Virus record (IMG/VR): IMGVR_UViG_3300037882_002580 | Coordinates: 1-42,687 of that record | Strand: one strand, 5' to 3' | Length of the DNA: 42,687 nucleotides | Origin: a virus | Part shown: piece after piece, positions 6,082-41,920 of the stretch | Numbering within the stretch: position 1 is the stretch's first letter | Layout of the letters: every line of letters begins with the position of its first letter | The notes under the pieces: model-generated | The model's database searches: none | What the model saw: the letters and a program-made list of their open reading frames with translations, nothing else | What the model was told of the DNA's origin: nothing | Made by a program: the position numbers and the translations under genes

Positions 6082-6513
6082 TTAGAAAGGGATGTCTGCT
6101 GGGTCTATTTCGCCCGCTGGTACGTCCACACCATCATACTGCGCGTCTACCGTTTGCTGCGTCGTGGTCTTTGGTGCGCTATCGGTCTTAGGGTTGTTTC
6201 CAAAGATGAAGTTCTCCGCGACGATTTCAGTGCGGTATTGCTTCACGCCGTCCTTGTCCCATGAGCGGGTTTTCAAGCGGCCAATGATGCCGATTTGATT
6301 GCCTTTGTGGAAGTACTGCGCGATGATTTCGGCCTGCTTCCCGAACGATACGACGTTGTGATACTCGACCTCCTCTTGCTTCTTGCCGTCCTTGTCTTTC
6401 CAGGTGCGGTTTGTGGCAACGGAGAATGATGCGACCTGTGTGCCGGATGGGAGTGCCTTGAGTTCAACGTCGCGGGTAAGGTTGCCGATGATGGTGGTGG
6501 TGTTGAGATACAT
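6082..6513 (-). CDS. ssb: Single-stranded DNA-binding protein
   Basis: 143 aa. Residues 1-105 are the OB fold (NTTTIIGNLTRDVELK, ATNRTWKDKDGKKQEE, QIGIIGRLKTRSW). A disordered Q/T-rich linker follows, and the protein ends in the acidic tip DPADIPF, the SSB-Ct that recruits replication and repair enzymes. No Shine-Dalgarno site precedes the start; an extended -10 (TGGTACAAT, 6570-6578) lies about 57 nt upstream, so SSB may also have its own promoter. Confidence 0.95.
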   Translation of the reverse strand: MYLNTTTIIGNLTRDVELKALPSGTQVASFSVATNRTWKDKDGKKQEEVEYHNVVSFGKQAEIIAQYFHKGNQIGIIGRLKTRSWDKDGVKQYRTEIVAENFIFGNNPKTDSAPKTTTQQTVDAQYDGVDVPAGEIDPADIPF

Positions 6514-14032: not shown

Positions 14033-16153
14033 CTAAAACGGAATGTCTAGCTCAGCGTCAAACTCTCTTTGTTTTTGTTGTGTGGGCTTAGGGGTAATTT
14101 TTAGAGTTGGAAGTGGCTTTTGGTGTGTCTTTGCCCAATAGACAGTTAAAAGGTGGTCACTTATTTGTTTTTCAGAGTAGCCAGAATAGCGAGCGTCCTC
14201 TATAAACTTTTTTTTGTCATCTAAGATAGATTTGAACTCAGCAACAAATGATTGTTGCCGTTCGGGTGTAGCTGCTTTTCCAAAAAGTCCGTCAATAAAA
14301 CTCTCAGGAGAGGCGTGCATGAGTGCTTTGCTGTGTAAGGAAGTACTTTGTTTTTCAACAAACCCAATGGCATCATTCTTATCTAAAAAGAAAGCCTCAG
14401 CATTGTCAGATTTGCGGTGTACTTTATATCCCTGCTTACCAGTCTTTTTTCCCAATACAGACATTTCTGGCGACGGTACTATGTCATAATCAGACACATT
14501 TTCTGAAATTGGCTTTACACTTTTCTTAGTGGGGGCGTTGGTAGGTAAGTTCATTTTTTGAGGGTAACTTCTTTGCTGGTTTTGCCCTTGTGGTAATTGT
14601 GGGATTCCTTTCTTGGAACCACCCCGAGTACTTGACGGTTTTGCGGAAGGTAGTACGCTTTGGGGTATGACAACTTTAGGAGCAATGTTTTGCGCCATGG
14701 CGTTATATTGGGGCGTTTGGGTTCCCTTCAAAGACCGCTTTTGAGCATCTTTAAGTATTTGTGATTCAGGTGCGGTGAGCCCTGTCTTTTTGCCGAGTAT
14801 TCGTGAGAGCCCACGACCTGCGAGCTTCGAGGTTATTTCACCACCTACCACAACTCCCAAGGCTGCCCCTACAGGGCCACCAACAATACCGCCAACAATA
14901 CCACCGCCCATGTTGCCAGCTATACGAGAAGTATATTTACCTAGCTTGCCACCTCGAACTCTTTTGCCATCAAGGCGTTCAATAAGCGCAAGGTCAGAAT
15001 AGTACTTTGATAGTTCCGCGTTGATGTCCTTGATTTTTTCTTTGCTCTTAGTTTCGATGATTTCTTTGAGGGCACGCGCTATTGCTTTGCGTGAAGTTTT
15101 CACATTCGGTTCTGTGAGAAAGTTTATTCCCTGGGTATTGCTGATTTTTGCGTCGTGCACCTGAGTTAATGGCACAGTTCCGCTTTTATCTGCCTTGAGG
15201 CGGTACCCTGCAATTTCCTTTTTCACATTGTTGAGGGCGTTCGTTAGGTCGGCACCTTCAAGTCCACTCGCACCAATGGCCTTTTCAAGAGCGGCCTTTA
15301 CGTCGTTTAGGTGTACTCGTACATTCTCATTCTCTAAAAGTTTGCGGACAACGGTTTCCTTCTTGTCAATAGTTTGAGCCTTGTATTTTTCATAAGCTCC
15401 CCCAGGTTGCTTGGTTCGCATAAGACCGTTTTCATCCACTGCGTCTGTGAGCACATCGGTATAAGCAACCCGTTGTCGGCTTGCATCTCCAGCATCTTTT
15501 GAATAGTCGTTCGCTTTTCTTGTCGAAGCGTAATTGTCTTCAATTTTTGCAATTTCGGCTGCGCGTTTTGCTACGACCTTCTCTGGTGTGGTGGTGATTG
15601 CTCCCTTAGCGGCATCTATAATCGGATCTGCTGCTTTTGCAGCCTTTCCTAGAGGAAGCACAGAAAGCGTATTCCCTAAGTCACGCACATCCTGCTGTTT
15701 TTCAGCGGGCAGCGATGCCATAAATTGCGACCCTTTTTCTGCTGCCTTCGAGACTCCCGCATTCGCCAAGTCAACACCCTTCGACACAATCGGGTTATTC
15801 GCAACCTTTTGAACAAGTGGGTAGTTTGAAAGCACGTCCACCTCCTTCTTCACGATAGGGGATATTACCGCACTAGAAACATCGTTTATTGCGCCGCCCA
15901 CGGCTCCAGAAGCACGCAAAAGCGTGCGCCCCACGACTTCCTTTGGTCTGGTGAAAAGTTCAGGAGTGAGAAGGTTCTTTGGTGCGCCTGCAAAGCTGTC
16001 TGCACGCTTCACAAGCCTACTCATAAGGGTTGGTTCTGCGGGTGCGGCAGCTTCCTGCGGCTTGGATACTGGACGCGCCTTGGCAGCAAAAGAAGGCTGA
16101 CCCTTCGTGCTTGTGGCTACTGGCCTGATTTTATCTTGGAATGAAAGTGCCAT
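14033..16153 (-). CDS. Putative internal virion / DNA-ejection protein with SSB-like C-terminal tip
   Basis: 706 aa. Basic, Ala/Pro-rich N-terminus; long helices to about residue 400; a glycine-zipper segment near residues 413-438 (GGGIVGGIVGGPVGAALG) able to cross or pore a membrane; then a disordered Q/P/S-rich region and a helical C-terminal domain. This pattern fits ejection proteins of podoviruses. The last residues FDAELDIPF match the SSB C-terminal tip of this same genome (DPADIPF), preceded by a disordered linker as in SSB. Located next to another long virion protein with a 3-nt gap. Confidence 0.65.
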   Translation of the reverse strand: MALSFQDKIRPVATSTKGQPSFAAKARPVSKPQEAAAPAEPTLMSRLVKRADSFAGAPKNLLTPELFTRPKEVVGRTLLRASGAVGGAINDVSSAVISPIVKKEVDVLSNYPLVQKVANNPIVSKGVDLANAGVSKAAEKGSQFMASLPAEKQQDVRDLGNTLSVLPLGKAAKAADPIIDAAKGAITTTPEKVVAKRAAEIAKIEDNYASTRKANDYSKDAGDASRQRVAYTDVLTDAVDENGLMRTKQPGGAYEKYKAQTIDKKETVVRKLLENENVRVHLNDVKAALEKAIGASGLEGADLTNALNNVKKEIAGYRLKADKSGTVPLTQVHDAKISNTQGINFLTEPNVKTSRKAIARALKEIIETKSKEKIKDINAELSKYYSDLALIERLDGKRVRGGKLGKYTSRIAGNMGGGIVGGIVGGPVGAALGVVVGGEITSKLAGRGLSRILGKKTGLTAPESQILKDAQKRSLKGTQTPQYNAMAQNIAPKVVIPQSVLPSAKPSSTRGGSKKGIPQLPQGQNQQRSYPQKMNLPTNAPTKKSVKPISENVSDYDIVPSPEMSVLGKKTGKQGYKVHRKSDNAEAFFLDKNDAIGFVEKQSTSLHSKALMHASPESFIDGLFGKAATPERQQSFVAEFKSILDDKKKFIEDARYSGYSEKQISDHLLTVYWAKTHQKPLPTLKITPKPTQQKQREFDAELDIPF

Positions 16154-16156
16154 AGG

Positions 16157-17914
16157 TTATTGCGTCCAGCCATCATCACGCGCCTCCTGTAGCTCTTCTG
16201 GTGAAAGGTCTGAGACGTTTACTTCTTGAGTACCATCGGGAGAGCGGAGTACTCCCTGAGTGGTGGTGGTCTGAGTAGCCTGACTGTCAATTTTCTTTTT
16301 GAGTTTGGTCTGAATTGTCTCAAGGCGTTCCTTGATGAAGCCCTCGCTTTGAGTACCCGCCCCCTCAAATCCTGATGACATCGACTGAATGAAAGCCAAG
16401 TCTTTGTCCGACATAGCACCTTTAAGCAGCCCGAGATTGTCTCGCGCGAGTATTGCGGAGAGCTGTCCAGCCTTAGCCTGTGCATCACCGTATGAGGTAG
16501 AAAATTGCCCACCTATGAGTGTTGAATAACCGCCCATCGCTTTGTACGCCTTTGTACTAAGCAAGCTATCTACCACTGTCTTTCCTTCGGTAAGTATTTC
16601 CACGTTTTTGTCGGTCATGCCACCTTGTGCATTAAGTCCAGCGAGAACCTCATTGCGGAGAGACTGAGCAGCGTTACTAGTGCCCTTGATGAGGTCATCG
16701 AGGTTTGCACCCAGGTTGATTTGGTCGATGATGTTTTGAGCTGCGGAAGATACTTGTACACCTGTATCACTGGCTCCACCGCCACCTGAGCCACCTGACG
16801 CGGATGCGGCCTGTGATGGTGTAAGCCCCTTATTTATCGTCACAAGCTTCGATGGGTCGCCATCCCAGTTATCAGGAACGGCAAGGATGCGGTTGCCTGC
16901 GTCAATGGTATTTGAATATCCTACAGGCAAACCGGTATCGAGCGTTTCAATGCTGATTTTTCCAGTGATTGGGTTTTGGTATGCCACCATGTACTTCCCA
17001 CCTTCGATTTTCTTGTCGATGATGGTTTCTTGCGGACGGTTGAGCGTGAAAAGTGCCTTGAGCATTCCTTCGCCACCCACTGAATCTGCAAGTCTTTGGT
17101 AAGAAGCAGGGTCAGTTTTCTTGAGGCCATCAACGGTAACACCTGATGCTGCGAGCGTTGTAGCGTGCTGTGAAGCTTTCTCCTCACGCTGTGCCTGGTA
17201 CTCTATGGAAGCCTTAGCACCTGTTACAGCATCGGCACGTTGCTGTGCGGCCTCTGTAGTGGCGTCCTGGCGTATCTGCGAAAGGATACCCTGCACCTTT
17301 ACAGATACCTGGTCTTGAATCTTCTGAATGTCTTGGGTGTTTTGTGCGCGAGTCTGCTGAGTGTTAGTAGCGGCCTCAGAAGAGCCTGCGAGTCCAGTGA
17401 GCGCGTTTATAGAGTTGGTATCCTGAAGCCTTTGATTGTTCGTCTGAGTCTGCGTCTGGATCAGGTCAGCACCGTACTTGTTGAGGGCGTCAATTTCACC
17501 CTGCGCACCGCGTATCTTTTCACGTGCAATCTGTTCCGATGTCTGGGGTGTAGTGAAAGCACCACCTTCAAGGTAGCTCTCTGCGGCTGTTTTTGGTTTT
17601 ACGCGAGGGTAGTACGGTGAAGGTGTGTCCTCCACAGGGGCTTCTGGGGCTTTGGTTGCGCGATATGCAGCGACGCGAGAATTATAAGTATCCGGTGTCT
17701 CTCCTGCCTTTAATTGAAGGTTTGTGTCGATTGTCGGAGAAGTCGGTGCGGCTGGAGTGGTGCCAAGCGAAGTGCCGTTTGAAGTATTTTTCCTAGGTGC
17801 AGTACCTGAAGTGGTGGGTGCTGGGGTTGAGAGTTGCTCTTTGGGAGCCACCTTTGAAATACCACCACGTGAGTTGGTGCCTGGTTTTGGTGCGCCGAGA
17901 GAGACACGTGCCAT
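16157..17914 (-). CDS. Putative internal virion protein, Gln/Thr-rich coiled coil
   Basis: 585 aa from the ATG at 17912-17914, 1 nt after the upstream stop. An upstream reading-frame extension to 18157 runs under the glycine-rich gene and is not credible. The N-terminal 120 residues are Pro/Thr-rich and disordered, residues of about 120-280 are a long coiled coil (TQTQTNNQRLQDTNSINALT, AQQRADAVTGAKASIEYQAQ), then a small beta domain (GGKYMVAYQNPITGKISIET) and helices. Paired with the 706-aa protein, it is probably ejected with the DNA or forms the short tail. No enzyme motif is seen. Confidence 0.65.
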   Translation of the reverse strand: MARVSLGAPKPGTNSRGGISKVAPKEQLSTPAPTTSGTAPRKNTSNGTSLGTTPAAPTSPTIDTNLQLKAGETPDTYNSRVAAYRATKAPEAPVEDTPSPYYPRVKPKTAAESYLEGGAFTTPQTSEQIAREKIRGAQGEIDALNKYGADLIQTQTQTNNQRLQDTNSINALTGLAGSSEAATNTQQTRAQNTQDIQKIQDQVSVKVQGILSQIRQDATTEAAQQRADAVTGAKASIEYQAQREEKASQHATTLAASGVTVDGLKKTDPASYQRLADSVGGEGMLKALFTLNRPQETIIDKKIEGGKYMVAYQNPITGKISIETLDTGLPVGYSNTIDAGNRILAVPDNWDGDPSKLVTINKGLTPSQAASASGGSGGGGASDTGVQVSSAAQNIIDQINLGANLDDLIKGTSNAAQSLRNEVLAGLNAQGGMTDKNVEILTEGKTVVDSLLSTKAYKAMGGYSTLIGGQFSTSYGDAQAKAGQLSAILARDNLGLLKGAMSDKDLAFIQSMSSGFEGAGTQSEGFIKERLETIQTKLKKKIDSQATQTTTTQGVLRSPDGTQEVNVSDLSPEELQEARDDGWTQ

Positions 17915-17915
17915 G

Positions 17916-19496
17916 TTAGAAATATTCGTAAACAATAACCATCCCACCGCCGCCCGCGCCGGAACTCCCTGCCGCCCCAGCCTTCGCACCACCGCCGCCG
18001 CCTGGAAGTGCTCCGGAACCAGCATTTCCCGTTGCCGCGATATTTCCTGCGCCACCATTACCGCCCTGATAAGCGGTGCTGGTCGCACCTGTAGATGCTC
18101 CGGCTCCTGACGCACCACCACCGCCCGCGCCGCCCCACGTGGAGTTACCGCCTGCAAACGCCGTGCTGTTGTTTATTACTCCACCACCGCCTGCTCCTTG
18201 GTAAGCACTAAGTGCTGCTGCACCTGTACCTCCTGCGCTTGCAAATGAATCCCCTGCGGTACCGGCTGTCGAGCCTGAGCCGTTACCACCAGCACCTAGT
18301 GCTCCGCCGCCGCCGCCTCCTCCTGCATTTATTGCTCCGTTGCTACCAACTCCTGCACCGCCTCCAAATGCAGTAAAGAGGGAGCTGAATCGTGTATTTC
18401 CTCCAGGATTCCCGTTTACGCCGGTGCCCGTTACGGCAGCTCCACCGTCTCCAATATCTACAAAAATTGAAGAGGTTGCAGCAAGCGTGGTTGAAGAAAA
18501 GAAGGCTTCAACAAAACCTCCACCACCTCCACCGCTTGCCTCATTTCCGCCGTTTTCGCTACCTCCTGACCCGCCGCCGCCCCATGCCCTAACGTGAATG
18601 TATTTTAGGTTTGCTGGTTTTATCCATGTGCCATCTGCAATGAATGCTAAGACATTTACATTACCAACAAGAGGCCCGCTAAAGGTGGTCGTACCGGTGA
18701 ACGTGGTAGTGGCCGCAATCGTTCGAGGTAAAAAGTCATCATCAATCGTGCCGTTTGTTCCCGTGACTACCACGCGGTTTGCAGCGGTTGCAGAGTTATA
18801 GGTTGAAGTAGCAAGCGATGCAGGCACGACGAGTACACCACTGGTGCCTGTTGCTGTTGAAGCGGCTATTTCTGCACCTGTGGCAAGCTCTGAGACGCCA
18901 CGAGCTGCTTCTGTAGCACTTACAACACCCGCACCATTGAAGGCCACTGAATCAACATAAGCCTTATTCACGATATGGCTTGAGCTGACGAAGGAAGTTG
19001 TTGCAAGGCTGTTGCTGTATGAAAGTGGGTTTTCGTAGGTTTCTTGACCAGATGCCTGAGCTTTCAAGATTTGAAGGACTGGAAAGTCTGTAATCTTGAC
19101 GCTTGCGCCGCGACGGTGAGCAAACTGAAGAGAAGACGCGGTTGTGGTGCCCGTTGCTGGGCTTATACCACGCGTCAAAGAGGTGACTGATGTTCCTGAA
19201 ACAAAGCCACAAATAAACTCAGCTTGGGATGAGCCTTCATCTACCGTGAAGCAGTTGAAGCCGCTGAGTGTAGAACCTCCACGCACCAAGTTTGCCGCAA
19301 GTGACATTGTGGTCGCTGCTGCCGTGATAGGAGCTGCAAGGGTGGTCTCAAAAGAAGCAACCGCTTCTGGCAATGCCGCACCGGCTTGGTCATCTACCGG
19401 CGTGCTTTCAATCGAAGGGCTGTGAAAAAACCCAGTGATGAGGATAATCGGAGCAATGAGTGCTGCTGCGATGGTGTGAAGAATAGATGAGAACAT
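17916..19496 (-). CDS. Glycine-rich-domain fibre protein with N-terminal hydrophobic segment
   Basis: 526 aa. Residues 1-24 (FSSILHTIAAALIAPIILIT) look like a signal peptide or anchor. Residues 30-130 resemble a virion-attachment domain (TTLAAPITAAATTMSLAANL, FNCFTVDEGSS). A Ser/Thr region with ATST-type repeats follows, and residues of about 285-526 form a glycine-rich domain beginning FIADGTWIKPANLKYIHVRA. Such domains form polyglycine sandwiches in phage fibres and act in receptor recognition. A TATAAT box lies 6 nt before the ATG. Confidence 0.75.
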   Translation of the reverse strand: MFSSILHTIAAALIAPIILITGFFHSPSIESTPVDDQAGAALPEAVASFETTLAAPITAAATTMSLAANLVRGGSTLSGFNCFTVDEGSSQAEFICGFVSGTSVTSLTRGISPATGTTTASSLQFAHRRGASVKITDFPVLQILKAQASGQETYENPLSYSNSLATTSFVSSSHIVNKAYVDSVAFNGAGVVSATEAARGVSELATGAEIAASTATGTSGVLVVPASLATSTYNSATAANRVVVTGTNGTIDDDFLPRTIAATTTFTGTTTFSGPLVGNVNVLAFIADGTWIKPANLKYIHVRAWGGGGSGGSENGGNEASGGGGGGFVEAFFSSTTLAATSSIFVDIGDGGAAVTGTGVNGNPGGNTRFSSLFTAFGGGAGVGSNGAINAGGGGGGGALGAGGNGSGSTAGTAGDSFASAGGTGAAALSAYQGAGGGGVINNSTAFAGGNSTWGGAGGGGASGAGASTGATSTAYQGGNGGAGNIAATGNAGSGALPGGGGGAKAGAAGSSGAGGGGMVIVYEYF

Positions 19497-21418: not shown

Positions 21419-22117
21419 TTACGAAGACGTGTCAAGCCCTCTATTATTCCATTCTGTGGATAACTCGCTTGGGTCGTTGTGCGTTATTTCAGACATTTGT
21501 AATTCGTTGTCCCACTTCTCAAGGCCGTTCTTCAAAGCTTGGAGTGCTGCACGATTCTCAGGGAGCATTTCGCGGTTGATGCTGTCGTAATCCACTGCGC
21601 CCTTATAAATGCCGATAGCGTAGTAGCCGAGAAGAGGAAGGAAGCGTGAAGGGAATGGTGTCCATACAGCCGCGTCAAGAGAAAGGTCCACGGGTACGGA
21701 GGTTTTGATGTGGTTTATGTAAAGGTCCCCACTCAGTGCTACCGTTCCATTCAGGTAGATGATGCCGTTCGCTACGTCATAGCAAAATGTGCCGCTTGCC
21801 GTGCGGTATTCAAGGCGTCGGTCAAAAGGCACCTGGGTGAAGTATTGAATGCGGCTGCCATCGAAGAGACGAATTGGGGTTTCACCATAGAAGCGTGAAA
21901 AGCGCTCAATGCCTGAGATTGAGTGCGGAGTTTCCCAGGTATTTGAGCTCGTGATAGCAATACTTGGATCGGTAGCGCGAAGCGCCATCCATGGACGTTC
22001 TTCTTCAAGAATGGCTCGTGCATTGTCCACGAGAATATCAGCAAGCGTTGCGTCTACCGTTGCCTCCGCATTGAGTAGCGTGATGAAGCTATAGAGCTCA
22101 TTTCCCTTGGTTATCAT
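21419..22117 (-). CDS. Head-tail adaptor-like protein
   Basis: 232 aa. Helical N-terminus (LYSFITLLNAEATVDATLAD, ARAILEEERPWMAL), a beta middle (RRLEYRTASGTFCYDV, GIIYLNGTVALSGDLYI) and a helical C-terminus (LLGYYAIGIYKGAVDYDSI). Its size, fold pattern and position after the capsid genes match connector/adaptor proteins (gp4-like tail accessory factor). It overlaps the upstream gene by 4 nt. Confidence 0.6.
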   Translation of the reverse strand: MITKGNELYSFITLLNAEATVDATLADILVDNARAILEEERPWMALRATDPSIAITSSNTWETPHSISGIERFSRFYGETPIRLFDGSRIQYFTQVPFDRRLEYRTASGTFCYDVANGIIYLNGTVALSGDLYINHIKTSVPVDLSLDAAVWTPFPSRFLPLLGYYAIGIYKGAVDYDSINREMLPENRAALQALKNGLEKWDNELQMSEITHNDPSELSTEWNNRGLDTSS

Positions 22118-22938
22118 GATGCAAATTGACTAATATCAAATGGTACCCCCTCCTTTGCCTTCTCTTTTGGCTTGCTCGATGCCACTGCCGTGCTTGGTGC
22201 GATTGAGAGCTCAATACCCTTGATAGTTTCCTCAAATAGAGGGGGTAGTGCTTCGATTTTAGATATGATTTCGGTCACGACACTAGAGAGTGCGGCCTGG
22301 AGTTGCTGCGCTGTGAGTTCATCTTTCTCACTGTCTTCACTCAATTTCTGCAAGATGGGTGAGAGGTCTGTGGGTGGGGTGACTTCTTTGGTGAGTACAG
22401 CCGTTTCAAGTTTCTTGATGCCGTTCAGTACTGGCGCGAGGTCAACTTTCTCCGGTAACTCTGCCGGTTCCACTGTGAGGCGTTCTACGGCACTGTCGAT
22501 AGCAGTAAGAACCTCACCAAAGCGCATTTTCGGCATTTTTACGGGCTCAGGAGCGGGTATTTTCGCCACTTCCTCTCTGATTATCTTGCGCAAAATGTAG
22601 AGGTCAATTTCACCTCCGCCGCCACCTCGGTTGGTGAGCCGGTCTTGCACCAGGTAGGTGTTTTCTTCATCGCCATAGTTTGGGTTTTTGCTGGTGTATC
22701 CTGCATCGGTGTAAACCGACGTGACGATGGAAATGTAGAAGCCCTGCCCGCTGCCATCGGCAATCACGTGCCAGTTTTTTGAAAAACGCTGTTCACCCTT
22801 GTCATCAAGGTCAAGCGTCTCAATTATTTCATCGGTGTATGCGTTGCGAATTACCGCACGGACATAGTTGGTGTCGGTGTCGAGGTGGTTTTGAATCTGC
22901 CGTACCACCGTGAAGTTATTTTGTGGGTGAAGAATCAT
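22114..22938 (-). CDS. Virion-associated hypothetical protein
   Basis: 274 aa. N-terminal 90 residues are beta-rich (NYVRAVIRNAYTDEIIETLD) and can be a small binding domain. A glycine linker (NRGGGGGE) leads to helical repeats with three similar KLETAVL/QKLSEDS-type units, and the tail is disordered. A Shine-Dalgarno-like GGGAGGAAG forms part of the hairpin just upstream. It lies directly after the capsid gene. No family recognised. Confidence 0.6.
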   Translation of the reverse strand: MILHPQNNFTVVRQIQNHLDTDTNYVRAVIRNAYTDEIIETLDLDDKGEQRFSKNWHVIADGSGQGFYISIVTSVYTDAGYTSKNPNYGDEENTYLVQDRLTNRGGGGGEIDLYILRKIIREEVAKIPAPEPVKMPKMRFGEVLTAIDSAVERLTVEPAELPEKVDLAPVLNGIKKLETAVLTKEVTPPTDLSPILQKLSEDSEKDELTAQQLQAALSSVVTEIISKIEALPPLFEETIKGIELSIAPSTAVASSKPKEKAKEGVPFDISQFAS

Positions 22939-35304: not shown

Positions 35305-36330
35305 TCACACAGCTTTAAACCCCTTTTCCTCGTGAATGTAAAAGTCCGGCCTTTCTCCCGCGAGCGACCATGCGCCGTTGTGATTGTCGAAGCTCATCAT
35401 CGGCATGGCGAAGTCTCTGCGTCCGTCTGTGATTTTGAAACGCTCATCAAGGCGAAACCCGATAAAGTTTGAGCCCTTCCCCTCGGTAATTTTGGCATAC
35501 AGCTTCATGGCCGTTTCCATGTCGCCCTTGTTTGAAAACACAATAAGCACGAATGCGGGTATGGGCGTGGGGAACTTGAAGTACTTTTGGTATTCAGAAA
35601 TTGCTCCATCCTTTCGGCCTATAAATGCGCGGTACAGCCGTAGCATTTTCTCCACGGTCTTTTTCTTGCCCATGCCGGTGGTGTCTTCGGTGCCGCGATG
35701 CACCTCAAGAAAAAAGAGCCGTTGTTTGCCGCCATAGTCGATGATGAAACGTTGGTCTGGTTTCAGGGTGTACTTTTTCCCGTCAAGTTCCAGGTCGTAT
35801 GCGTTTGGTAACACCGAAACGCGGTGTGACGGTATGAATGTGCGCTCGCTGAACTGCCCTACCCCTATGCGGATTTCTGCCGTGATGATGTTCTGCATCA
35901 TGGCGTGCATTTTGTGGGCCTCGGTGTAGTAAAAACCTTCGGGATAGAGGCGGTGTTCTTTTGCAAGTAAGACGATAGCTGCATCACCGCATTGCTGCAC
36001 AATGTGCTGGTGACGGCTCGGCCATCCGTTCCCTATTGCGGGAAATTGCCATGCGGGGTGGTTGAGGTAGTGGCCCTTTTTGAGCTTCCCGTTTACGTCG
36101 TAAGTGATGGTTTCGTGAAAGAAATCGGTGAGCATCTGGCCGTTGCTTCGCGGGTCCACAAGGCCGTGTATTCGCAGTAATTCTTTGCAGTGGTCACTTG
36201 GTAAGCCGTCGGGATACCACGAAAGCTCCTCAAGAAGACGCAAACGTGCGCCTGTAGGTTTGTGTGGAGTCTTTCCCGTTGGTGTGCGGCGATTCGGGTA
36301 ACGGCGGCCCCTGCTGTCGTGAGTTTGCAT
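35305..36330 (-). CDS. Replication-relaxation-family-like protein
   Basis: 341 aa. N-terminal winged-helix region (ARLRLLEELSWYPDGLPSDH), a middle helical region, and a C-terminal nuclease-like core: PDQRFIIDYGGKQRLFFLEV, HRGTEDTTG, then a Lys-rich helix (KKKTVEKMLRLYRAFIG). This PD...ExxRGTE...K...Y order recalls the Replic_Relax family (PF13814) of plasmid and integrative element proteins, related to PD-(D/E)xK nucleases. The neighbours are two VirD4/HerA-like ATPases, the combination expected for DNA mobilisation. It starts after a 215-nt leader holding strong inverted repeats. Assignment at family level is moderate. Confidence 0.65.
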   Translation of the reverse strand: MQTHDSRGRRYPNRRTPTGKTPHKPTGARLRLLEELSWYPDGLPSDHCKELLRIHGLVDPRSNGQMLTDFFHETITYDVNGKLKKGHYLNHPAWQFPAIGNGWPSRHQHIVQQCGDAAIVLLAKEHRLYPEGFYYTEAHKMHAMMQNIITAEIRIGVGQFSERTFIPSHRVSVLPNAYDLELDGKKYTLKPDQRFIIDYGGKQRLFFLEVHRGTEDTTGMGKKKTVEKMLRLYRAFIGRKDGAISEYQKYFKFPTPIPAFVLIVFSNKGDMETAMKLYAKITEGKGSNFIGFRLDERFKITDGRRDFAMPMMSFDNHNGAWSLAGERPDFYIHEEKGFKAV

Positions 36331-36678: not shown

Positions 36679-36687
36679 AGTATATCA
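36679..36687 (-). promoter_or_regulatory. Extended -10 box fused to the ATPase stop codon
   Basis: TGATATACT on the minus strand; its TGA (36685-36687) ends the VirD4-like gene. Identical in sequence to the box at 36553-36561. Confidence 0.5.
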
Positions 36688-38190
36688 CTTCGGCTCCTGG
36701 TCAATATCATCTTCTCCCCACACCTTGGGTTTCGGCCCTGTTAAGCCGCGTGGGGGTTCTGGGGGAAGGACTTCGCCTTCGTGGATGAATGGAGTGACGG
36801 TGGTAGCGGGCACACCTTTGATTTCGGGTTTTGGTGGGCGCGTTTGTGGTGGGCTTGTGATGATGGCCACGTTGGGGTCGTCGATTCCGGATACTGCAAA
36901 GTGTTTTTCAGGATATGAGGCTTTGAATTGCACACCGCAATGATGCAGTGCATCAAGAACGTCAGGGTCCTTGATATTGCTCTCGCGTTGGTGCGCGAAC
37001 GTGAAGGCCATCTTCATCTTCCGCGCCTGGTCGATGATGGTCGAGATGTTCGGGTCGGTGGCGATGTAATCGTGGCATTCGTCGATGTAACAGTACGTGG
37101 GCAAACGATATTGTGCGGCGACGTTGCCGCGTTGCTGTGAGACTGAAAGCAAGGTCGCAATGATGAAGCGTCCGAAAATCTCCGTGCCTTGTGGGCCTAA
37201 AAGAGCTTTGTCGGTGTCAACTAAAATGCAGCGCGGCTCTTGCAGCAATGAGTAAAAATCCAGGGCGCGTTTCTGTGTGAACATGCGGGCGAATGAGGGG
37301 CGTTGCAGTAGGCTATCAAGTCGCCATTGCAGCTCTTTCTTCGTGTCGGTGTACTGTTTTGGGTCGTCAAATGAATTGGTAAAAAAGAGCCGTGCAGGAG
37401 GCTGTAGGCGGGGGATGATTTGCCGATAGTGGTCCAGTCCTTTTGGCTGCAACAGTTTCAACATATCGGCAACGGTGCCCTCCGCTTCCATCACCAACTG
37501 CACCAAAAACGTCCATAGGGTGTTTTGCTTTGGGGTGAAGGTGCCACCTTCGCCTAGGGTTGCAGAAAACACGTAGGTGATGAGGTCGATTTGTGCCGTG
37601 TACATAATCTCTGCGTCACGAGCATTTTGTGGGGTCCGTGGCCGCGCAAAAATGTTCATGGGTGTGGTGGTGTCGATGGTGGTGCAAGGGTATGCGCGTT
37701 CGATGCGCCCTAAAAGCTCGTGCTTGCCTTGGCTGTCCATCACCAAAACAGTCGCCTGCTTCTTGGTCACTTCTTCCAGGTCTTGAAAGATTAGGTTTTC
37801 AAGTAGTGTGGTTTTGCCGCTTCCGCTTTCACCCGTTACCCATGTGTGCTGGAAGCGTCTTTTTGAGGCAAGGTTGGTGTAGAGGGGGTAGTCTTGAAAG
37901 TAATCCTGTTTGCTGTAGGGGAAAGGATTTGAGAACGCTTTTATAAGGTCAGCATCGCTCTTTTTCGGAATTATATATCGCGTATCATAGAAAATGCGGA
38001 AGGGTGTCTCTTTCCCGTACCGTTTGATAACGTCGGCCACTTGCTGAAATGTGGTGATTGCTTCTTCGGGGTAGTTATATCGTGCGTCGTGATCATACAT
38101 CGCGGTAAGGACGATGGCTTTTTCAACATCGGTGCACCACGAAAGGTCAACTTGCGGGAGAATGTCGCGCTCAATTTGTTCAGGTGTCAC
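36685..38190 (-). CDS. VirD4/TraG/HerA-type DNA-pumping ATPase
   Basis: 501 aa. Walker A GESGSGKT at residues 120-127, Walker B YCYIDECHD at 366-374 and the arginine-finger/sensor-like FAHQR at 398-402 identify an active RecA-fold ATPase of the conjugation coupling-protein/HerA group. No transmembrane helices at the N-terminus, unlike classical VirD4. The C-terminal 60 residues are Pro-rich and disordered. It overlaps its degenerate partner by 4 nt. Such ATPases feed single-stranded DNA or protein to a secretion channel; here no type IV secretion genes are present in the window. Confidence 0.82.
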   Translation of the reverse strand: MTPEQIERDILPQVDLSWCTDVEKAIVLTAMYDHDARYNYPEEAITTFQQVADVIKRYGKETPFRIFYDTRYIIPKKSDADLIKAFSNPFPYSKQDYFQDYPLYTNLASKRRFQHTWVTGESGSGKTTLLENLIFQDLEEVTKKQATVLVMDSQGKHELLGRIERAYPCTTIDTTTPMNIFARPRTPQNARDAEIMYTAQIDLITYVFSATLGEGGTFTPKQNTLWTFLVQLVMEAEGTVADMLKLLQPKGLDHYRQIIPRLQPPARLFFTNSFDDPKQYTDTKKELQWRLDSLLQRPSFARMFTQKRALDFYSLLQEPRCILVDTDKALLGPQGTEIFGRFIIATLLSVSQQRGNVAAQYRLPTYCYIDECHDYIATDPNISTIIDQARKMKMAFTFAHQRESNIKDPDVLDALHHCGVQFKASYPEKHFAVSGIDDPNVAIITSPPQTRPPKPEIKGVPATTVTPFIHEGEVLPPEPPRGLTGPKPKVWGEDDIDQEPK

Positions 38191-40615: not shown

Positions 40616-41668
40616 TCAGCTTTTCTGGCTGTTTACGAGTCGCAAAATGTGCGCTTCGTATGCTTCGACTGCGAGGCGCATTTCGGGTTGGTGGGTGTAA
40701 CGCTGATACGTCGAAACGATGCCGCCGAAGCTTCCGCTCACATGGTTGAGCAGGCGTTCCGTGATGTGAATCGGTGTGCCGATGCGGGCATGCGTCGTGG
40801 CGTAGGTGCGGCGCAAGTCGTGGAGCGTCCAGGGGTCAATGGGTACCGCTCTGTCGAGCCGCGCTTTCGCTTTGCTCCACCCGTTGAACGTCAAGGCTCC
40901 GCTTGACAGTAGTGGTAAGGCGGTAGCGGGCAATGGGAAGGTGTGCTCGCGTCCGTTCTTGCTGTGGGCGGCGGGGAGTGTGGCGGTGTCGCCGTTCACA
41001 ATGAGGTTCTGGATTTCGCTTTTCCGGCACCCTGTCAAAATCAGAAGCTTGACGGTGCGGCCAAAAATGTCATCGCCGGAAGCGTTCCATACGGCGCGGA
41101 GTTCGTCATCGGTGAGCACCCTATCCCGTGGCGTTTCTTTGTACGGCATGCGCATGGCGGTAAGGGGTGAGTGCTCAAGAAGGCCACGGCGCACACACCA
41201 AAAGAAAAAGGTGCGGAGGTATTTGAAGGTGTGGTTTGCCTCTGATGGGGTTTCGTGCAGTTCATCGAGCAACGATTGCACGTCATGGCGCGTCACCAAG
41301 TGAAGGGATTTGGCCCAGGTGCAATGTTTGTTCATCACCCGTTCCATGGCCGCATGGGATTTGAGGCGTGATACGTGGAGCTTAAGAAAGTCGTCACGAG
41401 CCTCTAGAAACGCGCTGGCGGGGACGGTTCGTGGGTTTGTGGCCAAGAGTGCTTTTGCCCGTTTGCGTGCTTCCTGGAGGCTCACAGCGGGCCATAGGCC
41501 CACTCGTATGCGTTCCCTCAGTTTGCCACGGGTAACTACAAAGGTTTTGCGGGTTTTGCCGATGCGGATACCAAAGGCAGGCAATAGTGCGTCACCGTAA
41601 TAGCCTGGTGTTTTGACTGTCTCAATGAAGCGTTCAGTGAGCGCGTTTTGTCTCTTTTTGTCTCCCAC
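40616..41668 (-). CDS. int: Tyrosine-type integrase
   Basis: 350 aa with a GTG start at 41666-41668. The N-terminal part (residues 1-80) is the arm-binding DUF4102-like domain (PGYYGDALLPAFGIRIGKT ... RIRVGLWPAVSLQEARKRAK) of P4-type integrases. The catalytic domain shows R215 (TGCRKSE), K237, H283 and R286 (HDLRRTYAT), H309 (LLNHVSG) and tyrosine Y321 (STYQRY). It catalyses site-specific integration. tRNA-Arg lies 177 nt upstream, the type of target used by this family. It implies a temperate life style. Confidence 0.93.
   Translation of the reverse strand: MGDKKRQNALTERFIETVKTPGYYGDALLPAFGIRIGKTRKTFVVTRGKLRERIRVGLWPAVSLQEARKRAKALLATNPRTVPASAFLEARDDFLKLHVSRLKSHAAMERVMNKHCTWAKSLHLVTRHDVQSLLDELHETPSEANHTFKYLRTFFFWCVRRGLLEHSPLTAMRMPYKETPRDRVLTDDELRAVWNASGDDIFGRTVKLLILTGCRKSEIQNLIVNGDTATLPAAHSKNGREHTFPLPATALPLLSSGALTFNGWSKAKARLDRAVPIDPWTLHDLRRTYATTHARIGTPIHITERLLNHVSGSFGGIVSTYQRYTHQPEMRLAVEAYEAHILRLVNSQKS
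41646..41664. repeat. Direct repeat, int-start copy (GAGACAAAA pair)
   Basis: On the minus strand two GAGACAAAA units overlap the first codons of the integrase. The same 19-20 nt block recurs at 41821-41840 with one extra T/A, directly beside tRNA-Arg. Possible integrase arm-type or core sites. Confidence 0.6.
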
Positions 41669-41844: not shown

Positions 41845-41920
41845 TGGCCTCCCCGGACGGACTCGAACCGCCAATCGGCAAATTAGAAATTTGCTGCTTT
41901 TCCAGTTTAGCTACGGGGAG
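41845..41920 (-). tRNA. tRNA-Arg (TCT)
   Basis: Acceptor CTCCCCG/CGGGGAG (7 bp), D arm closed by GCT/AGC, anticodon stem GCAAA/TTTGC with loop TTTCTAA (anticodon TCT, reads AGA), T arm GGCGG/CCGTC with loop TTCGAGT. Discriminator G and an encoded CCA. Its 5' end overlaps the HNH gene by 14 nt. Confidence 0.95.

Follow-up and report, generated by a model that had tools for sequence, protein, structure and literature searches.

A modular, predicted ejected phage protein with an SSB-like C-terminal tip

A stretch of viral DNA of 42,687 nucleotides (IMG/VR record IMGVR_UViG_3300037882_002580), hereafter called the window, encodes a 706-aa modular protein, termed p706, that is probably packaged in the virion, ejected from it and of the polyvalent or polymorphic-effector kind. 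Proteins of its family have a twin short motif at the N-terminus, then a helical core and a glycine-zipper segment, and finally a C-terminal module that is interchangeable. In p706, this last module ends in a sequence that resembles the C-terminal tip of SSB, a resemblance that is most likely incidental or particular to this one module. Little is known of how phages take over Parcubacteria-type host cells, and a conserved delivery core that carries many exchangeable cargoes, some of them from toxin families, would yield a list of predicted delivered effectors.

Gene context and predicted structure of p706

The p706 gene is situated between the gene for a 666-aa partner protein and a tail-fibre gene (Table 1), and the same position is found in relatives. 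The gene order that relatives share is terminase, portal, scaffold, major capsid protein, 274-aa protein, 232-aa protein, 635-aa protein, Gly-rich fibre, partner gene, p706 and tail fibre. The true start of the partner gene is probably well downstream of position 18157.

Table 1. Coordinates of p706, its segments and two associated genes in the window
Feature	Positions	Strand	Basis
p706, 706-aa ORF, predicted ejected modular protein	14033..16153	-	ATG start; cassette position; core homologues in IMG/VR
N-terminal twin short motif, SFQDKIRPVA (residues 4-13) and SFAAKARPVS (residues 21-30)	16064..16144	-	self-alignment against shuffles
Conserved helical core, residues 190-400	14954..15586	-	alignments A4, A5 and A8; AlphaFold2 pLDDT mostly 80-95
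GGKLGKY motif and glycine-zipper hydrophobic segment, residues 401-453	14795..14953	-	motif alignment of 26 members; AlphaFold2
Predicted linker, largely disordered, residues 480-603	14345..14716	-	pLDDT mostly < 50
Orphan helical C-terminal module, residues 604-676	14126..14344	-	pLDDT mostly 50-67; without relative in searches
Predicted disordered tail, residues 683-706	14036..14107	-	pLDDT < 50
SSB-like tip FDAELDIPF and stop	14033..14062	-	ORF translation; C-terminus comparison within window; tip profile
Partner gene, 666-aa ORF, ends 3 bases ahead of p706 start	16157..18157	-	homologues precede p706-type genes
Phage SSB, tip DPADIPF	6082..6513	-	Pfam SSB E 5.8e-35; tip score 18.5

Relatives were reached by way of the terminase, by searches with the 635-aa tail-region protein and then with a profile made from it, and by profiles built on the p706 core, among which A4 proved too diverse for searching. 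When viral contigs were searched with p706 as a single protein, the sole match covered 30 aa at the N-terminus, and tblastn against annotated phages produced no match. A first search of genome contigs with the terminase likewise produced no match, and a profile search with the same protein found two genome contigs, one of which is in a Parcubacteria MAG. This 57% terminase relative on a Parcubacteria MAG contig suggests that the phage group is linked to Parcubacteria, with misbinning as a possible source of the association.

An earlier note on this DNA had proposed that p706 is a virion protein delivered with the DNA. We infer that this is so from its position in the virion cassette, its glycine-zipper segment and two properties of its relatives. 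By sequence, two family members (L122 and L131) carry N-terminal lytic transglycosylase domains (SLT/transglycosylase in Pfam), and one member matches the PHROG "internal virion protein with endolysin domain." Both properties would suit a protein that accompanies the DNA on its way across the envelope.

The structure of p706 was modeled with AlphaFold2 on a family alignment of 26 sequences. Residues 403-453 form one long helix in the model, and the glycine-zipper segment reaches a Kyte-Doolittle maximum of 1.96 over 19 aa; residues 401-453 are a candidate membrane-crossing segment. In all 26 members aligned at this motif, the sequence GG[KR]LG[KG]Y is retained, and a hydrophobic stretch rich in glycine comes after it. 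The conserved core of the family has no match at a meaningful score to Pfam, PHROG or NCBIfam. Foldseek searches of BFVD and PDB with the full p706 model gave no match at E <= 0.001, and the best viral matches, none of which reached this threshold, are uncharacterised proteins and one MuF-like protein. Pfam matches of p706 to BREX_BrxC_helical, C19orf12 and DUF6861 (E 0.06-0.08) were judged to be due to chance.

Self-alignment compared with shuffled sequences gives p 0.08 for the twin motif in p706 alone, and an N-terminal motif duplication is found at p <= 0.05 in 20 of 27 family members. The sequence of the motif varies among phages and is doubled inside each (L119, L121, L126, L084, L059 and others), as in the pairs DLTKYNVKP / DLSKYGVKP and GYTLDEVNAFPDAP / GYSFDEVNALPDAP. 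The twin motif is possibly a docking or packaging signal. Another recurrent short motif is found at the C-terminus of the 274-aa virion protein (22114-22938, minus strand), which ends PFDISQFAS in the window and PIDISKIAV, PFDVSKLST or similar in relatives. It bears a loose resemblance to [FIV]D[LIF]xKY, the form that the N-terminal motif takes in some p706-type proteins.

We propose that the twin motif probably docks p706 during assembly, and that the helical core and glycine-zipper segment probably help the protein to exit the virion and, together with the DNA, to pass through or line the cell membrane. The C-terminal module would then be the cargo, working inside the host and swapped between phages. 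In the window, the cargo would be a mostly helical orphan module, after which comes a short disordered tail with the SSB-like tip at its end. The sequences themselves show the conserved core, the glycine zipper, the tip, the exchange of modules and the enzyme families of relatives; that p706 is packaged and ejected, passes the membrane and acts inside the host is presumed from them.

Exchange of C-terminal modules among relatives

In place of the C-terminal ~224 aa of p706, every relative has unrelated sequence. The closest core, that of L119, is 57% identical to p706 over the core region compared, and beyond the glycine zipper the two proteins have no detectable similarity. Similarly, the cores of L119 and L122 are 71% identical and those of L053 and L061 are 60% identical, without detectable C-terminal similarity in either pair. 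The reverse is observed when L124 or L127 is compared with L143, for which cores that are about 20% identical are joined to C-termini that are 39-61% identical. Thus, like cores carry unlike modules and distant cores carry like modules, and the swapping of modules and cores goes both ways.

Some of the modules belong to recognizable families, namely zeta-toxin-like kinases and ADP-ribosyltransferases. Zeta_toxin modules form the C-terminus of three members (L053, which differs in this respect from L061, and L064 and L065; best Pfam E 6.4e-13), and ART-PolyVal is detected at E <= 0.001 in 3 of 26 members (L084, L079 and L133; best Pfam E 1e-11). A RelA/SpoT domain in L047, at a Pfam E of only 0.068, was kept as tentative. 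Large multidomain C-termini are present in L124, L129, L133 and L143. The C-terminal module is almost absent from L061, L131 and L132; because some relatives stop soon after the core, the cargo is not essential.

The module of p706 itself appears to be an orphan. No relative of it was found in viral contigs, phages, 379 Patescibacteria genomes, Pfam or the ORFs of the loci collected in this analysis, and PDB sequences gave only matches with E of 0.43 or worse. When the module was modeled by itself with AlphaFold2, the prediction was poor (pLDDT 55), and it was left out of the fold search. Because the module matches no known domain in Pfam, its label as an effector is drawn from relatives.

The SSB-like tip of p706

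Translation of the ORF bears out the claim of the earlier note that p706 ends in FDAELDIPF, the full ending being ...PTLKITPKPTQQKQREFDAELDIPF. The note was also correct that the phage SSB ends in DPADIPF (...AGEIDPADIPF), and the tip of p706 closes a tail that is predicted to be disordered. The low pLDDT of residues 683-706 implies that the tip is predicted to be on a free, exposed tail. Among all ORFs of the window, only p706 and the phage SSB have endings of the DIPF kind. As in the SSB-Ct of bacteria, the D-I-P-F end of p706 has acidic residues near it and is carried by a predicted disordered tail, although its similarity to SSB tips is intermediate, as described below. Pfam detects no SSB OB-fold domain in p706.

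The resemblance was quantified with a profile built from 29 Patescibacteria SSB tips, most of which have [DE][DE][IL]PF at the C-terminus. The p706 tip scores 9.8 bits, whereas 992 other phage C-termini score at most 5.6 bits, so that p706 is ahead by 4 bits. Host SSB tips score 16.3-28.3 bits, a range that is somewhat flattered because the same tips were used to build the profile, and the phage SSB scores 18.5. The tip therefore falls above every unrelated C-terminus scored and below every SSB tip scored. Its chief flaw is Leu at position -5, where SSBs have Asp or Glu.

Given the residue frequencies observed at 830 phage C-termini, endings of the form [DE]-hydrophobic-P-F should occur by chance at 6.8e-5 per gene, or about 0.3-0.4% per window of 45-60 genes. 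The 830 phage ORF C-termini include one further instance. Because the motif was picked after being seen, these figures and the profile scores are uncorrected for that choice. A protein with a DUF4062 domain (Pfam E 3.8e-18) that is not an SSB, encoded on a related contig (L032, 2829-3848, minus strand), ends in DNDPDHEIPF. The two phage tips are encoded by different codons (GAC ATT CCG TTT TAG in p706 and GAC ATC CCT TTC TAA in SSB), which makes it unlikely that the p706 tip is a recent copy of the end of the SSB gene, and this origin was rejected.

The earlier note had named an absence of the tip from homologues as what would refute its proposal, and such an absence is observed, so that a conserved role for the tip is not supported. 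In all complete relatives examined, the end of the protein is unrelated to that of p706, and none has a [DE]-hydrophobic-P-F ending, even at 57% core identity. This is a weak test, because each relative differs from p706 over the whole of the C-terminal module, and loss of the tip elsewhere is thus no disproof of a function in this phage. The lack of conservation favors the explanation that the tip arose by chance at the end of a module that evolves fast and has no part in binding SSB partners. We consider this explanation fairly likely, given also that the expected frequency per window is not rare across the many windows and motifs read and that the unrelated DUF4062 protein has a similar end. 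It accounts less readily for the 4-bit margin over all 992 non-SSB C-termini and for the location of the tip at the very end of a predicted disordered tail.

The positive support for the alternative that the tip functions comes down to a moderately good motif on a predicted disordered tail. The tip could be a weak mimic and bind host proteins that interact with SSB. In its working form, the tail of ejected p706 would capture such repair or replication-restart proteins (RecO, PriA, RecJ and others of this kind) and recruit or block them at the incoming DNA of this presumed Parcubacteria phage, and the protein would have a direct route to the host repair machinery. Candidate targets exist, because among 39 Patescibacteria genomes sampled, RecO was detected in 36 and PriA exceeded the cut-off in 15. 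The prevalent form of Patescibacteria SSB tips and the presence of host-directed enzyme families among the C-terminal modules of relatives also agree with a working mimic. However, the tip is absent from complete relatives, is weaker than every real SSB tip and was spotted post hoc in a single genome, and we found no paper in the open-access literature that reports such a tip on a phage protein that is ejected. On balance, we regard a working mimic as quite improbable. Slightly less so, but still unlikely, is that the tail end serves another purpose, either docking to a virion or phage protein in assembly or binding the phage SSB itself. The recurrent C-terminal motif of the 274-aa virion protein suggests that proteins of this phage group may dock through their C-terminal ends, but one would expect an assembly tip to show the conservation of that motif, and the p706 tip does not.

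Relation to known systems and other genes of the window

The internal virion or ejection proteins of podoviruses include gp14-16 of T7 and gp7, gp16 and gp20 of P22. The p706 family shares with these proteins a predicted internal location, a hydrophobic glycine-rich segment and, in the two relatives noted above, an N-terminal lytic transglycosylase. No significant sequence or fold match links them to p706.

The arrangement of exchangeable domains is that of two described groups, polyvalent proteins and polymorphic toxins, and the p706 family appears to work in the manner of such effectors. The published study of polyvalent proteins, which phages and conjugative elements encode, describes virion-linked proteins with ART, zeta-like kinase and RelA/SpoT domains (PMC5512222). 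As with the p706 family, their genes are virion-linked and encode multidomain proteins with exchanged domains, ART-PolyVal and zeta-toxin-like domains among them. The virion-linked position of p706-type genes is borne out by conserved synteny, and the swapping of effector domains on a common backbone holds for the family, in which zeta and ART modules are present in relatives. The p706 family differs in its core, which seems to belong to no named family, and p706 itself is without a recognized catalytic domain.

The same architecture as in the p706 family, a phage-encoded delivery part fused to a variable C-terminal toxin-like domain, is found in the MuF polymorphic toxins that temperate phages encode (PMC5576092). 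The window also carries an integrase. However, the Phage_Mu_F domain is found in none of 26 family members at E <= 0.001 (Pfam), and the p706 gene is at the tail end of the virion cassette, away from the portal. Thus, the family appears to be outside the MuF family.

The integrase is of the tyrosine type (40616-41668, minus strand; Pfam E 5.4e-8) and adjoins a tRNA-Arg gene (41845-41920, minus strand), a possible attachment site. Beside phage genes, the window encodes a HerA/TrwB-like ATPase (weak Pfam matches, below cut-offs) and a protein with a weak Replic_Relax match (36685-38190 and 35305-36330, minus strand), which may reflect plasmid-like or mobilisation functions. A pentapeptide-repeat protein is encoded at 390-1019 on the minus strand (Pfam E 2.2e-15).
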